64,000 nucleotides of DNA from Hyphomicrobium sp. 99 (GTDB lineage: Bacteria > Pseudomonadota > Alphaproteobacteria > Rhizobiales > Hyphomicrobiaceae), in NCBI RefSeq assembly GCF_000384335.2, contig NZ_KQ031382.1:1550001-1614000 (forward strand), written 5' to 3'. Both the position numbers and the translations under genes were made by a program. Below are positions 28,479-34,658 of this stretch, one piece after another (the first letter of the stretch is position 1; the number at the start of each line of letters is the position of its first letter). Below the pieces are notes generated by a model, which saw nothing but the letters and a program-made list of their open reading frames with translations, did not search any database and was not told the DNA's origin.

Positions 28479-29540
28479 ATGGAGCATCCCGGATTCTTTG
28501 AACGCGCCGGGCCTTATGCACTCTCTGAAGTGGCAGTGGCGGCAGGCGCGGAGATCCTGAGCGGCGCTGACGCGACCGTCAAAATCGATGACGTGCGTCC
28601 ACTGCACGAAGCGGGTCCAAGTCACATCTCATTCATCGACAACCGGAAATATCTTTCGCAGCTCGATGCGACGAAGGCCGGTGCCTGCCTTGTCGTCCCC
28701 ACACTCGCGGACCGCGTTCCGGCCGGAACGACCGCGCTCATCACCAAGCAGCCCTATCACGGCTTCGCCCGCGCCCTGGCGCTGTTCTATCCCGATGCCA
28801 TGCAGCCGATGGTGGCGAGCGCAGGCGCCGCGCCGATCGATCCAACGGCCAAGCTCGAGCCGGGAGTACTGATCGAACCCGGCGCGATTATCGGCCGGGA
28901 GGCGCAAATCGGCGCCGGAACCCGTATTGCCGCAGGCGCCGTCGTCGGCGCGCGCGTAACGATCGGACGCGATTGCTTTATCGGTGCCCTCGCAACCGTA
29001 ACCCACGCACTTGTGGGCGATCGGGTCATCATCCATTCCGGTGTCCGGATCGGTCAGGATGGCTTCGGCTTCGCCATGGGCCGGTCAGGGCACCTGAAAG
29101 TGCCTCAAATCGGCCGGGTGGTTATCCAAGATGACGTCGAAATTGGAGCAAATACAACCATAGATCGGGGTGCCCTTAAGGATACGCTTATCGGCGAGGG
29201 CACTAAAATTGATAATCTCGTCCAGATCGGGCACAACGTCATCATCGGTCGCCACTGCGTGATCGTTTCGATGTGCGGCATCTCAGGCTCGACCGAACTA
29301 GGCGATTTCGTCGTCATGGGCGGCCAATCCGGAACTGTCGGCCACATCAAGATCGGCAGCGGCGCACAAGTCGGCGGGGCGTCCCATCCGACGCATGACG
29401 TGCCGCCGGGCGCCCGCTATTTCGGCACCCCGGCGAAACCCCTGCGTGAATCCGCACGTGAACAAGCCATGATCAAGCGGCTCGTCGCGCGCGATAAAGA
29501 CAGCTATGAGGACGGGGCGCCGGAGCCTGAGGAAGGCTGA
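28479..29540 (+). CDS. lpxD: UDP-3-O-(3-hydroxyacyl)glucosamine N-acyltransferase
   Basis: Third step of lipid A synthesis: N-acylation of UDP-3-O-acylglucosamine. It has 353 residues: an N-terminal uridine-binding domain (to about 110) and a left-handed beta-helix of hexapeptide repeats ([37 protein letters not shown]), with the catalytic His region [12 protein letters not shown]. It heads the lpxD-fabZ-lpxA-lpxI/B cluster. Confidence 0.95.
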
Positions 29541-29589
29541 CAGCCGGCGGGCTCTTCTTTCGAGCGTAATTTTTTTGGAGCACACGACT

Positions 29590-30093
29590 ATGGAAGGCAA
29601 GGCTACGGCGGTTAAAACTCTCGGCACCGCGGACATCAACCGCGTGATGAAGCTGCTGCCGCATCGCTATCCGTTCCTTCTGGTCGATCGGATGTACGAT
29701 ATGGACGCGGACGAGAGCTGCGTCGGCGTGAAGAACGTCACCATCAACGAGCCGTTCTTCCAGGGACACTTTCCCCAGTTTCCCGTGATGCCGGGCGTGC
29801 TCATCATCGAAGGTCTCGCCCAGACGGCGGGCGCGCTTTGCGTCTCGAACGTCGGCCACGACTACAAGGCCGAGCTCGTCTATTTCATGGGCATCGACAA
29901 CGCCAAGTTCCGCAAGCCGGTGCTGCCGGGCGACCAGCTCCACTACCACGTGCGCAAGGTCCGCAACCGCGGCCGCGTCTGGCGCTTCAAGTGCGAAGCG
30001 AAGGTCAACGGCAAGACCGTGGCCGAGGCCGAAATCAGCGCCATGCTGGCGGACACGGCCGATGCGCGCGCATTTGCGAGCCAAAATGGCTGA
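29590..30093 (+). CDS. fabZ: 3-hydroxyacyl-ACP dehydratase FabZ
   Basis: Dehydrates (3R)-hydroxyacyl-ACP in fatty acid elongation and so competes with LpxA/LpxD for hydroxyacyl-ACP. Hot-dog fold, 167 residues. Key pieces are [13 protein letters not shown], the catalytic His in [19 protein letters not shown] and the Glu in the following helix (EGLAQTAG). I use the ATG at 29590 with TTGGAG upstream; the frame extends back over the end of lpxD without similarity. It overlaps lpxA by 8 bases. Confidence 0.95.
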
Positions 30094-30892
30094 AGTGGAA
30101 GTCCATCCGACGGCCGTCGTCGAAGACGGGGCTAAGCTGGCCGCCGGCGTAAAAGTCGGACCCTTCTGCGTCGTCGGTCGCGACGTGACGCTCGGCGAGC
30201 GCGTCGAACTGGTGAGCCATGTCGTCGTCGCCGGAACGACTGACATCGGCGCCGGCACGCGCATTTTTCCGTTCGCGTCGATCGGCCACCAACCGCAGGA
30301 TCTGAAATACAAGGGCGAGCCTTGCTCGCTCTCGATCGGCTCGGATTGCATCATCCGCGAAGGCGTGACGATGAATCCCGGCACCGCAGGCGGCGGCTCG
30401 GTGACGGTTGTTGGCGACGGCTGCGCCTTTCTGGCGAACAGCCACGTCGGCCACGATTGCCGCGTCGGCAACGGCGTGATCTTCTCCAACAACGTCATGC
30501 TCGCCGGTCATTGCAACGTCGGTGATTTCGCGATCATCGGCGGCGGCGCTGCCGTCATTCAGTATGCGCGCGTTGGCCATCACGCTTTCGTCGGCGGCAT
30601 GTCGGGCCTCGAAAACGATCTCATTCCGTACGGCATGGCGCTCGGCAATCGCGCCTACCTCTCGGGCCTCAACATCGTCGGCCTGCAGCGGCGCGGCTTT
30701 TCCCGCACCGACATTCACGATCTCCGCCGCGCCTACCGGCTGCTCTTCGCTGCTGAAGGTACGCTCGTCGAGCGCATGGAAGATGTCGCTGAAGAGTTCG
30801 CCGGTCACGCGTCCGTGCAGGAAATCCTCGCGTTCATCCGCCAGGGCGGCAAGCGTTCGCTGTGCACGCCGAAGAACGGCGAAGAGAGCTGA
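30086..30892 (+). CDS. lpxA: UDP-N-acetylglucosamine acyltransferase
   Basis: First step of lipid A synthesis: 3-O-acylation of UDP-GlcNAc. The 268-residue protein is a left-handed beta-helix (repeats such as [19 protein letters not shown]) with the catalytic His in [13 protein letters not shown], and a helical C-terminal domain ([13 protein letters not shown]). The ATG at 30086 gives the usual [14 protein letters not shown] start; an ATG at 30062 inside fabZ is possible but gives a non-conserved leader. Confidence 0.94.
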
Positions 30893-30900
30893 AACCGCCC

Positions 30901-33378
30901 ATGGACGGTCCGATGAAGCGCATCGGGATCATCGCTGGAGCCGGCTCGCTTCCTCTTGAAGTCGCGGAAAGTGTCACGCGCCGCGGCGGCGAAGTTCACG
31001 TCGTCATGGTCGAGGGCGCGGCCGATCCCGCGCTCGCGAAGTTCCAGCATACGCTCGTCAATTGGGCTCAGCCCGGACGCGCGATGGCGGCATTCCGGCG
31101 TGCAGGCATCAGTCACGCGCTGCTGCTCGGCGGCTATCGGCGCCCATCGTTTCGGACCGCGCGTCCAGATCTCGCATTTCTGCGGCTCGCCCCGGCGGTC
31201 GTGAAATTGTTGAAAGCAGGCGGCGACGACGCCGTGCTGCGCGGCGTCCTCGCGCAATTCGAAGCGCTCGGCCTGCACATCGTCGGCGTCGAGGACGTGG
31301 CACCCGAACTGCTCGTCGGCGAAGGCAACCTGACGAGAGCCGCGGCCTCGCCGGAGAATGCCGCGGACATTGCGCGCGGCTTCGATCTCGTTGCCGCGCT
31401 TGGACGCTACGACATCGGCCAGGCGGCCGTCGTCAGCCGCGGCCACATCGAAGCGATCGAAGGCGCCGAAGGCACGGATCGCATGCTGAAGCGCGTCGCT
31501 GAAGCGCGCCGGGCGCGAGGCGACAACGAACGCTACGGTGTGCTCGTCAAGCGCCCGAAGCCCGGTCAGGATCTTCGCGTCGATCTCCCGGCCATTGGCC
31601 CGAACACGATCGTGGGTGTCGAAGCTGCTGGCCTCAGCGGCATCGCCGTGATGGCCGATCACGTGCTCGCCGCGAACCGCTCAGAGATGATCGCGCGCGC
31701 CGACGAGCGAGGCCTCTTCATCACGGGCATAAAAGCGGGAGAGGGGAAACGCGATACGACAGGCATCCCAGATATCCGAACGCACGCTCTGGGCGATCTC
31801 CCGGTCAATCCTTCCGCCGAAAAGGACATCGCACGCGCCGCTGGCGTTCTTTCCGCCTTGTCATCGTTTGGCGACAGCTCGGCTGTCGTCATTGACGGCG
31901 GACGCATCCTCGCCGTCGGCAACTCAGAAGACCCCGCATCGGTCGTCGAACGCGTGAGAATCCTGCGCGGCAAGAAAAAGCGCCGTCGCGGCATCCTGGT
32001 CGTCGGCGAAAAGTACCCGCTCGACGAAGCGCTCATTCGCGCAGGCGAGAACGCCGACCTCAGCGGTATTGCGATCACCGGCGACGCGGCGGGTCTCGAG
32101 ACATCTTCAAGTGTCATCCGGTTGGCAAACAGTTCCGCGATGTTCGTCGCCTCTTCACAACCGGGATCAGGACCGAAGCCGTTGAAAATATTCCTCATCG
32201 CCGGTGAACACTCAGGCGATGCGCTCGGCGCCAAGCTGATCGGCGCGCTGAAGAAGCAGCATCCCGACCCGATCGCCTTCTCGGGTGTCGGCGGAGAGGA
32301 AATGGAGGAGCAGGGGTTCCGTTCGCTTTTCCCCATCGAAGACGTGGCCGTCATGGGGCCAATGTCCATACTGCCGAAGCTGCCGCGCATCGTCCGCCGC
32401 GTCTATCAGACCGTCGATGCGGCGATCGCGTTTGCGCCCGATGTTGTGGTCATCATCGACAGCCCCGAGTTCACCCACCCGATCGCGAAGCGCATCAGGA
32501 AGCGCGCGCCGAACATCACAATCGTCGATTATGTGAGCCCCAGCGTTTGGGCTTGGCGTCCTGGCCGCGCCAAGAAAATGCGGCCTTACGTCGATCACAT
32601 CCTGGCGCTGCTGCCGTTCGAGCCGGAAGCGCATGCGCGTCTCGGCGGACCGCCGTGCACGTATGTCGGTCATCCGCTGATCGAAAAGCTCGACGACATT
32701 CAGAATGCCGACGCGAACGGCCTGGCGTCTCGCCTCGGTATCGCACCTGACCGCCCGGTCTTGCTCGTTCTCCCTGGCAGCCGCACTTCAGAAGTCGAAC
32801 GACTAATCGACGTGTTCGGCGAAGCGGTCGCGCGCGTTGCGTCGTCGAAGGGACCGATTGAAGTCATCATCCCGGCCGTCCGCCATCTGCGCGATCGCGT
32901 CGCCGCGAAAACAGAAGCATGGACGCCTAAGCCGCACATCATCGATGCATCGGCGACGAACGACAAATACGCCGCCATGCGTCTCGCACGAGCCGCGCTC
33001 GCGGCATCTGGCACCGTGACCCTCGAACTTGCACTCGCCGGAACGCCCTCGGTCGTTGCCTACAAGGTCGATAAGGTGATGGCGAACTTGCGCTTCCTGC
33101 TGAAGGTGCCGAGCGTCGTCTTGGCGAACCTCGTCATCGGCAAGAACGTCTATCCGGAATATTTGCAGGAAGCCTGCACGGCCGAAAATCTGGCAAACGC
33201 CATCGCGCCGCTTCTGAGCGATACCGTTGCCCGCTCCGCGCAACTCGCCGGCTTGAGCCTAGCGCCAGAAAAGCTTCGCCTCGCCGCCTCGAGTCCAAGC
33301 GAGGCGGCGGCAGCTGTCGTGTTGTCGGTTGTTGCGGATCAGCCTGCCGGGAAATCGCGGCGCGCCGGCCCGATGTAG
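30901..33378 (+). CDS. lpxI/lpxB: LpxI-LpxB fusion with a degenerate second LpxI domain
   Basis: A single 825-residue open frame carrying two consecutive lipid A enzymes. Residues 6-276 are LpxI (UDP-2,3-diacylglucosamine pyrophosphatase), starting [16 protein letters not shown], with DIGQ, EGTD and the catalytic [14 protein letters not shown] segment. Residues about 428-825 are LpxB (lipid A disaccharide synthase): [49 protein letters not shown], and [20 protein letters not shown]. Residues about 309-419, between them, align with the LpxI catalytic domain (156-276) but lack its acidic catalytic motif. I saw no stop or frameshift within the frame. I use the ATG at 30901; ATGs at 30862 (inside lpxA) and 30913 are alternatives. 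The 3' end overlaps gltA on the opposite strand by 40 bases. Confidence 0.92.
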
Positions 33379-34658
33379 AGCTGCCTCGGACGGCCGATGC
33401 GCTGCTCCGGATCCTCGATCATTTCCTTCCACTGCGCGATCCAGCCGACCGTGCGCGCGACCGCGAACAGCACGGTGAACATGTCGACGGGGAAGCCCAT
33501 CGCCCGAAGCGTGATGCCGGAATAGAAGTCGATGTTCGGATAAAGCTTCTTCTCGATGAAGTACTCGTCCTGAAGCGCGATGCGCTCGAGCTCCAACGCG
33601 ACCTTGAGCAAAGGATCGTCGCCGTGGCCGAGTGCATCGAGAACCTCGTGACAGGTCTTCTGCATCACCTTGGCGCGCGGATCGTAGTTCTTGTACACGC
33701 GATGGCCGAAGCCCATCAGCCGGAAGCCGGACGACTTGTCCTTCGCCTTCTTCACGAATTCGGGGACGCGATCGACCGTGCCGATCTCTTTCAGCATGTT
33801 GAGCGCAGCTTCGTTGGCGCCGCCATGCGCGGGGCCCCATAGGCAGGCGATGCCGGCCGAGATGCACGCGAACGGATTGGCACCCGACGAACCCGCCAGA
33901 CGCACCGTCGAGGTGGAGGCGTTCTGCTCGTGATCGGCATGCAGGATGAAAATGCGATCCAACGCACGCGAGATGATCGGATTGACGATGTAGGGCTCGC
34001 ACGGCACCGCAAAGCACATCTGCAGGAAGTTCGATGTGTAATCGAGATCGTTGCGCGGATAGATGAAGGGCTGCCCCATCGAATATTTGTAGGCCATTGC
34101 CGCGATCGTCGGCATCTTGGCGATCATGCGCTGGCTCGCGACCTCGCGCTGCGTCGTATCGTTGATGTCGGTCGAGTCGTGATAGAACGACGACAATGCG
34201 CCGACCGTCCCGACCATGACCGCCATCGGATGCGCGTCACGCCGGTAGCCCGTGAAAAAGCGCGTCATCTGCTCGTGAACCATCGTGTGGTTCGTGATCG
34301 TCTTCCGGAAATTGATGAACTCGCCGTTCGTCGGCAGCTCGCCGTAAAGCAGCAGGTAGCAGACCGCCAAGAAATTCGTATTTTCCGCGAGCTGATCGAT
34401 CGGATATCCGCGATACAGCAATTCGCCCTTATCACCATCGATATAGGTGATCGAACTCTTGCAGTTCGCCGTCGACGTGAAGCCCGGATCGTACGTGAAG
34501 CAGCCGGTTTCTTTATACAGGCTGGCGACGTCGATGACGTCAGGCCCGATGGTGCCGGAACGCACCGAAAGCTGAACCTGCTTGTTATCGACAGTCAACG
34601 TCGCACTGGGCTTCGTCGCGCCCTTTGCAGCTTTGTCGTAAATGTTCATGCTCGCCAC
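33339..34658 (-). CDS. gltA: citrate synthase
   Basis: Condenses acetyl-CoA and oxaloacetate at the entry of the TCA cycle. It has 439 residues and is the type II (hexameric, gram-negative) form, with the N-terminal beta-rich domain ([20 protein letters not shown] segment with [11 protein letters not shown]), [13 protein letters not shown], and the catalytic [15 protein letters not shown]. It is convergent with lpxI/lpxB and their 3' ends overlap by 40 bases. The start could be Met1 or Met4 (MASMNIYD). Confidence 0.96.

Follow-up and report, generated by a model that had tools for sequence, protein, structure and literature searches.

Why a bacterium would carry two lipid A enzymes in one chain, with a degenerate copy of a catalytic domain between them, is the question raised by a gene of Hyphomicrobium sp. 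99. The gene lies in a stretch of 64,000 nucleotides (contig NZ_KQ031382.1, positions 1,550,001 to 1,614,000), here called the window, and all positions below are those of the window. It is an open reading frame of 825 amino acids plus a stop at 30901..33378 on the + strand, as are all the parts of the gene described here; it starts with an ATG at 30901 or 30913, and its translation has no internal stop. An earlier note on this DNA had read the frame as LpxI, then a second copy of the LpxI C-terminal domain, then LpxB, and the uninterrupted frame, Pfam searches and profile alignment by hhalign bear that reading out with the same pairing of residues. We lean towards the view that the protein is a bifunctional LpxI-LpxB enzyme and that the second domain, which we call C', is an old structural pseudo-domain of LpxI that later came to abut LpxB.

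The two enzymes and the domain between them

The LpxI half consists of an N-terminal domain at residues 7-137 (30919..31311; Pfam PF17930, LpxI_N, expectation value [E] 4.6e-32, 111.1 bits, cut-off 25) and a C-terminal catalytic domain at residues 141-274 (31321..31722; PF06230, LpxI_C, E 2.5e-45, 154 bits, cut-off 25). With LpxI_N followed by LpxI_C, both above the Pfam gathering scores, the protein has the domains of an LpxI, and its residues 5-279 match the structure 4ggm. In Caulobacter crescentus LpxI, residues Q169, T187, D188, K214 and D225 have been linked to substrate or catalysis (PMC6286764). Their counterparts in the first LpxI_C copy, Q174, T192, D193, K217 and D228, are identical and are retained in all 54 rows of the family alignment, and T236 is retained in 52 of them. 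The narrow NCBIfam model NF047836 (LpxI equivalog) does not take the protein in, as the score of 217.4 bits is below its whole-protein cut-off of 400. LpxB occupies residues 430-804 (32188..33312; PF02684, E 6.2e-88, 295.6 bits, cut-off 22.6) and also passes TIGR00215 (230.4 bits, cut-off 190.25). In an alignment to 5w8n, R628, E709 and N743 correspond to R201, E281 and N316 of Escherichia coli LpxB (PMC5785501), and they are invariant in 12 aligned rows. Thus, the catalytic residues are intact in the first LpxI_C and in LpxB, and the earlier claim that one protein joins two lipid A steps is supported by the two sets of domains in a single chain.

C' lies at residues 304-419 (31810..32157), after a fast-evolving linker at residues 275-300 (31723..31800). 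The earlier note had proposed a profile search of this in-between stretch against the LpxI family. Searched alone, nucleotides 31750-32190 gave LpxI_C at E 0.0015 and 18.8 bits, below the gathering cut-off of 25, and a short match to an imidazolonepropionase model that was also below its cut-off (21.1 versus 25.5 bits). When the C' of four relatives was scored against the same 25 bits, three passed (28.2, 25.7, and 24.3 or, with neighbouring residues, 26.6) and one failed (22.4). The comparison of C with C' columns from the 54 family sequences by hhalign, however, gave 99.65% and E 4.8e-25 over 127 columns. Because the highest of 30 column shuffles reached 0.79%, and LpxI_N against C' reached 0.31%, the match is not due to chance. 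We conclude that C' is homologous to LpxI_C over the whole domain.

What C' has lost is catalysis. It holds S327, P345, A346 and V368 where LpxI has Q, T, D and K, and in the family profile the segment that carries D225 is deleted. Across the 54 rows, the LpxI residue persists in C' at Q169, T187, D188 and K214 in 4, 2, 3 and 0 cases, respectively. The EGTD motif and a 10-letter motif, the losses from which the earlier note had argued that this copy cannot catalyse, are indeed gone. C' is thus predicted to be catalytically dead.

What C' has kept is its fold. The predicted model is confident, with a predicted local distance difference test score (pLDDT) of 84-96 for each 10-residue block from 291 to 420, compared with 58 in the linker at 281-290, and it has the order of helices and strands of LpxI_C. 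Foldseek on the whole-protein model returned LpxI, LpxB, GT-B folds and some complex I chains with no separate result for C', and C' was also modelled separately for structure comparison, in which it matched ATIC and nucleotide deaminases as well. The confidence of the model, the LpxI_C-like order of secondary structure and the structure matches rule out a new fold or a disordered spacer, either of which would have undone the earlier reading of residues 309-419. Mean column identity of C' across the family is 26%, and D309, R351, G364 and A409, which correspond to conserved positions of C, are retained in 50-52 of the 54 rows. Pairwise ratios of nonsynonymous to synonymous substitution (dN/dS) among the six closest fused genomes, from 15 pairs that are not independent (12 usable for the linker, taken as residues 279-300), were 0.07 for LpxI_N, 0.13 for C, 0.29 for C', 0.46 for the linker and 0.07 for LpxB. 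These ratios point to purifying selection on C' that is looser than on the enzyme domains. We note that a motif, RQWG, occurs in C' of 27 of the 54 family rows (L090, L106, L118, L125 and others); it is absent from the window and from the five other fusions of the Hyphomicrobium clade in that alignment and present in the fusion at locus L089.

Age of the second domain and origins of the fusions

C' is older than the main fusion. Within the genus, C' was found in all 22 genomes surveyed, of which 11 are fused and 11 unfused, one genome (G004) being judged from its LpxI-C' frame alone with lpxB on another contig, and one locus (L011) beginning at a contig edge without LpxI_N. The 11 fused genomes include two in a single contig and one from an isolate, which rules out a sequencing or assembly artefact for the fusion of this clade. 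A stop or frameshift between the LpxI and LpxB parts, which by the earlier note would have refuted its reading, is not present. Among 80 named loci, 9 are fused, 55 are unfused LpxI with C', 13 are plain LpxI, 2 have no visible LpxI and 1 was set aside. A tree of LpxB (87 rows) gathers the 11 Hyphomicrobium fusions, H. facile DSM 1565 among them, into one clade with support of 100/97, and three unfused species adjoin it. The state of C' changes once over 84 rows of that tree (71 with, 13 without), and C' is present in all 71 readable rows on its side; the node that joins the carriers has modest support (82/90), and some assemblies among them are titled otherwise (Devosia, Bradyrhizobiaceae, Hyphomonadaceae). 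In a tree of the domain itself, the C' sequences form one group (100/99) on long branches, and its root does not separate descent from the family's own LpxI_C from descent from elsewhere. From these trees, C' appears to have a single origin before the main fusion and to have been present since the ancestor of this group of Hyphomicrobiaceae.

Order and class samples were scanned for a second match with the generic Pfam LpxI_C profile. Of the 143 order genomes that have LpxI_C, 4 showed a second, adjacent match; each of the 4 belongs to this family, and none of the 136 genomes outside the family showed one by that profile. Three genomes of the family, the window's included, gave no second match at that threshold. 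In the class sample, one of 242 LpxI_C genomes (G364) had two matches, but these lay on different contigs of an assembly with 8% contamination and were rejected as a tandem duplication. The survey of Hyphomicrobiales that the earlier note had suggested turned up the three-part architecture in one Hyphomicrobium clade and in the separate lineage of L089; the four order-level loci outside the family that were checked stop to stop (L056-L059) were all unfused. Fusions suspected from open-frame lengths in G023, G065, G102, G071 and G116, and likewise in G036, G041, G052 and G054, proved on the same check to be separate frames. The locus set aside above (L152, from genome G118, the metagenome-assembled genome Hyphomicrobium sp. 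WM.3.5) was rejected as a fusion because, although LpxI and LpxB share one frame, C' lies in another, probably owing to an assembly indel.

Fusion has happened more than once. The class sample led to a 0.8 Mb genome (G303) of a family of small-genome alphaproteobacteria, f81, in which 38 of 40 genomes matched. A stop-to-stop check of its 20 best-scoring loci (L174-L193) showed 17 fusions, spread over five genera, in which the LpxI and LpxB matches are 1-7 residues apart; the 3 unfused loci all belong to genus g340. None of the 17 fusions has any residues in the stretch of C', and all keep the catalytic residues of LpxI and LpxB with one exception, position 193, where 9 have D, 7 have N and 1 has E. 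In a tree made by a short search without bootstrap, they fall well away from the Hyphomicrobium fusions; within f81, that tree requires either one gain and one loss or two gains. Since the f81 fusions lack C' and stand apart in the tree, fusion of LpxI to LpxB has, on firm evidence, arisen at least twice, once beside C' and once without it. L089, a single metagenome assembly that falls off the main fusion clade on the LpxB tree, would be a second origin among C' carriers, and a third in all, if its sequence is right. It could be an artefact, however, because in its unfused relatives, L091 and L092, lpxI and lpxB share a frame, such that one wrong base at the stop would mimic a fusion.

The surroundings of the gene are those of an lpxI. 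Upstream, lpxD, fabZ and lpxA (28479..30892, + strand, by Pfam) stand in the usual order of the lipid A cluster, and the lpxI part thus has lpxA on one side and lpxB on the other, in a genome with no LpxH above cut-off; the one match to the LpxH model scored 46.8 bits against 190.35. Over the whole genome (4.1 Mb, 3 contigs), the window's protein is the sole match to itself at E <= 0.001. Given that there is no second match and that the LpxH match is far below its cut-off, both LpxI and LpxB activity in this genome probably come from this gene alone. Downstream, a convergent gene for citrate synthase (33339..34658, - strand) overlaps at its 3' end with the final 40 bases of the fusion gene. 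The overlapped stretch, 33339-33378, is still similar in relatives L005, L008 and L010 despite an earlier lpxB stop there.

How the fused protein may work

If both halves are active, LpxI_N and the first LpxI_C would produce lipid X by hydrolysing UDP-2,3-diacylglucosamine, and LpxB would couple this product with a further UDP-2,3-diacylglucosamine, forming the tetra-acyl disaccharide 1-phosphate. Because both halves act on UDP-2,3-diacylglucosamine, one chain could use that substrate twice. Fusion would set the two activities at 1:1 over a short transfer distance and could keep the detergent-like substrate and lipid X local. The substrate has been called detergent-like, and its accumulation toxic (PMC4985137), and overexpression of LpxG, another hydrolase of UDP-2,3-diacylglucosamine (UDP-DAG), led to toxic accumulation of lipid X (PMC4807358), in keeping with a need for the hydrolase and LpxB to be in balance. 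Purified LpxI, wild type and D225A, yielded lipid X and UDP-DAG (PMC5785501).

The role of C' would then belong to LpxI, given that C' predates the fusion and does not occur in the f81 fusions. C' most likely packs with the LpxI half, perhaps taking, in cis, the place of the second LpxI subunit in the dimer, and would have come to abut LpxB only later, on fusion. LpxI forms a two-fold dimer in crystals and, it appears, also in solution, with the function of dimerization called unclear in the same account (PMC6286764), and LpxB is an intertwined dimer (PMC5785501). Since LpxI is such a dimer and C' is a dead copy of its catalytic domain in cis, C' is a natural candidate for a pseudo-subunit, and of the linker, channel and dimer interface put forward in the earlier note, the dimer interface is the option we favor. 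We tentatively carry the argument one step further, to a model that we rate as rather unlikely in its entirety. Perhaps C' packs in cis on the catalytic LpxI_C and replaces half of the ancestral homodimer, giving an LpxI with one active site that, after fusion, is held in fixed geometry beside the LpxB dimer and hands lipid X over directly. Hand-over would then be a selected property of the pathway, since the other lineage fused LpxI_C straight to LpxB.

The linker or lipid channel between LpxI and LpxB fares worst, and we consider it very unlikely. C' does sit exactly between the enzymes in the fused clade, about 8 residues from LpxB in the window, but it is also found in the 55 unfused LpxI among the named loci, it predates the main fusion, and all 17 f81 fusions do without any residues there. 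A regulatory role, in which C' binds a nucleotide or lipid ligand such as UDP, uridine monophosphate (UMP) or an acylated sugar in its former active-site cleft, would suit a domain that derives from one that binds UDP-sugars and that resembles ATIC and nucleotide deaminases in fold. The substrate positions are variable or deleted, however, at the counts given above, and such a role seems quite unlikely. Alternatively, C' may be the decaying remnant of a duplication with no present role, in which foldability is kept since a misfolded insert would harm the protein. The loss of every catalytic residue, evolution faster than that of either enzyme's domains and the low column identity are what decay would produce. 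Nevertheless, C' persists in every readable row on its side of the tree, including unfused proteins from which a stop could easily remove it, four of its residues are nearly invariant, and its dN/dS is below that of the linker, such that we think decay unlikely.

A different kind of alternative is that the locus makes two products, the full fusion and, by initiation within the gene at or near codon 428, a free LpxB, and that the fusion is in part a by-product of merged overlapping genes. The junction (32101..32184) suggests as much: codons 401-424 are among the least synonymously variable windows of the gene in ten genomes, AGGA stands at 32169-32172, and codon 428 is a TTG at 32182-32184. Leu428 is TTG in all six members of the window's subclade, five of which have AGGA upstream, when a single codon is kept at just 20 of the 74 invariant leucines in that subclade, and L007, from the fused clade, has an in-frame ATG with GAGGAGG upstream. 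Set against this, the window's junction has no ATG with a good ribosome site, and TTG starts are weak. Moreover, from codon 410 onward the sampled windows are unremarkable (ranks 0.29-0.74), other parts of the gene contain the lowest ones, the signal was sought after the fact, and a second TTG, at codon 408, is likewise kept in six of six. The sequence is only suggestive of an internal start for free LpxB, and we regard two products as possible but doubtful.

Relation to known systems

LpxI and LpxB are already known, as are the order of their genes and one fusion within the lipid A cluster, that of lpxC with fabZ (PMC3087551). Titles, abstract openings and passages from the open-licence literature in PMC, as far as these were examined, yielded no report of an LpxI-LpxB fusion or of a doubled, half-dead LpxI. 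An entire bacterial group whose LpxI chain carries a dead LpxI_C copy offers a natural experiment on the function of the second domain in the LpxI dimer. Moreover, independent fusions are genetic evidence that coupling two steps that share a substrate is beneficial, and they offer one chain in which the hand-over of lipid X might be studied.

The published precedent, lpxC/fabZ, in Bacteroidetes, Chlorobi and Verrucomicrobia, also joins two genes of the lipid A cluster, but these are other genes, and the passage that describes the fusion mentions no pseudo-domain (PMC3087551). The resemblance of C' to the AICAR transformylase of ATIC and to the ADAT2/ADAT3 deaminases is one of fold, at 10-14% identity and with unrelated chemistry. 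Escherichia coli LpxB (PDB 5W8N, 5W8S, 5W8X) matches residues 426-781 of the window's protein and has the three counterpart residues, but it is a stand-alone protein. C. crescentus LpxI (PDB 4GGM, 4J6E) shares its two domains and active-site residues, and lpxI lies between lpxA and lpxB in both organisms (PMC3087551), but it has no second C domain and is not fused to LpxB. The f81 fusions have LpxI and LpxB in one frame with the catalytic residues largely kept, but LpxI_C adjoins LpxB directly and their origin is separate. Finally, H. zavarzinii (L129) and Filomicrobium insigne (L125) have LpxI_N, LpxI_C and C' in the same order as in the window, but their proteins stop after C', and lpxB forms a gene of its own in another frame.
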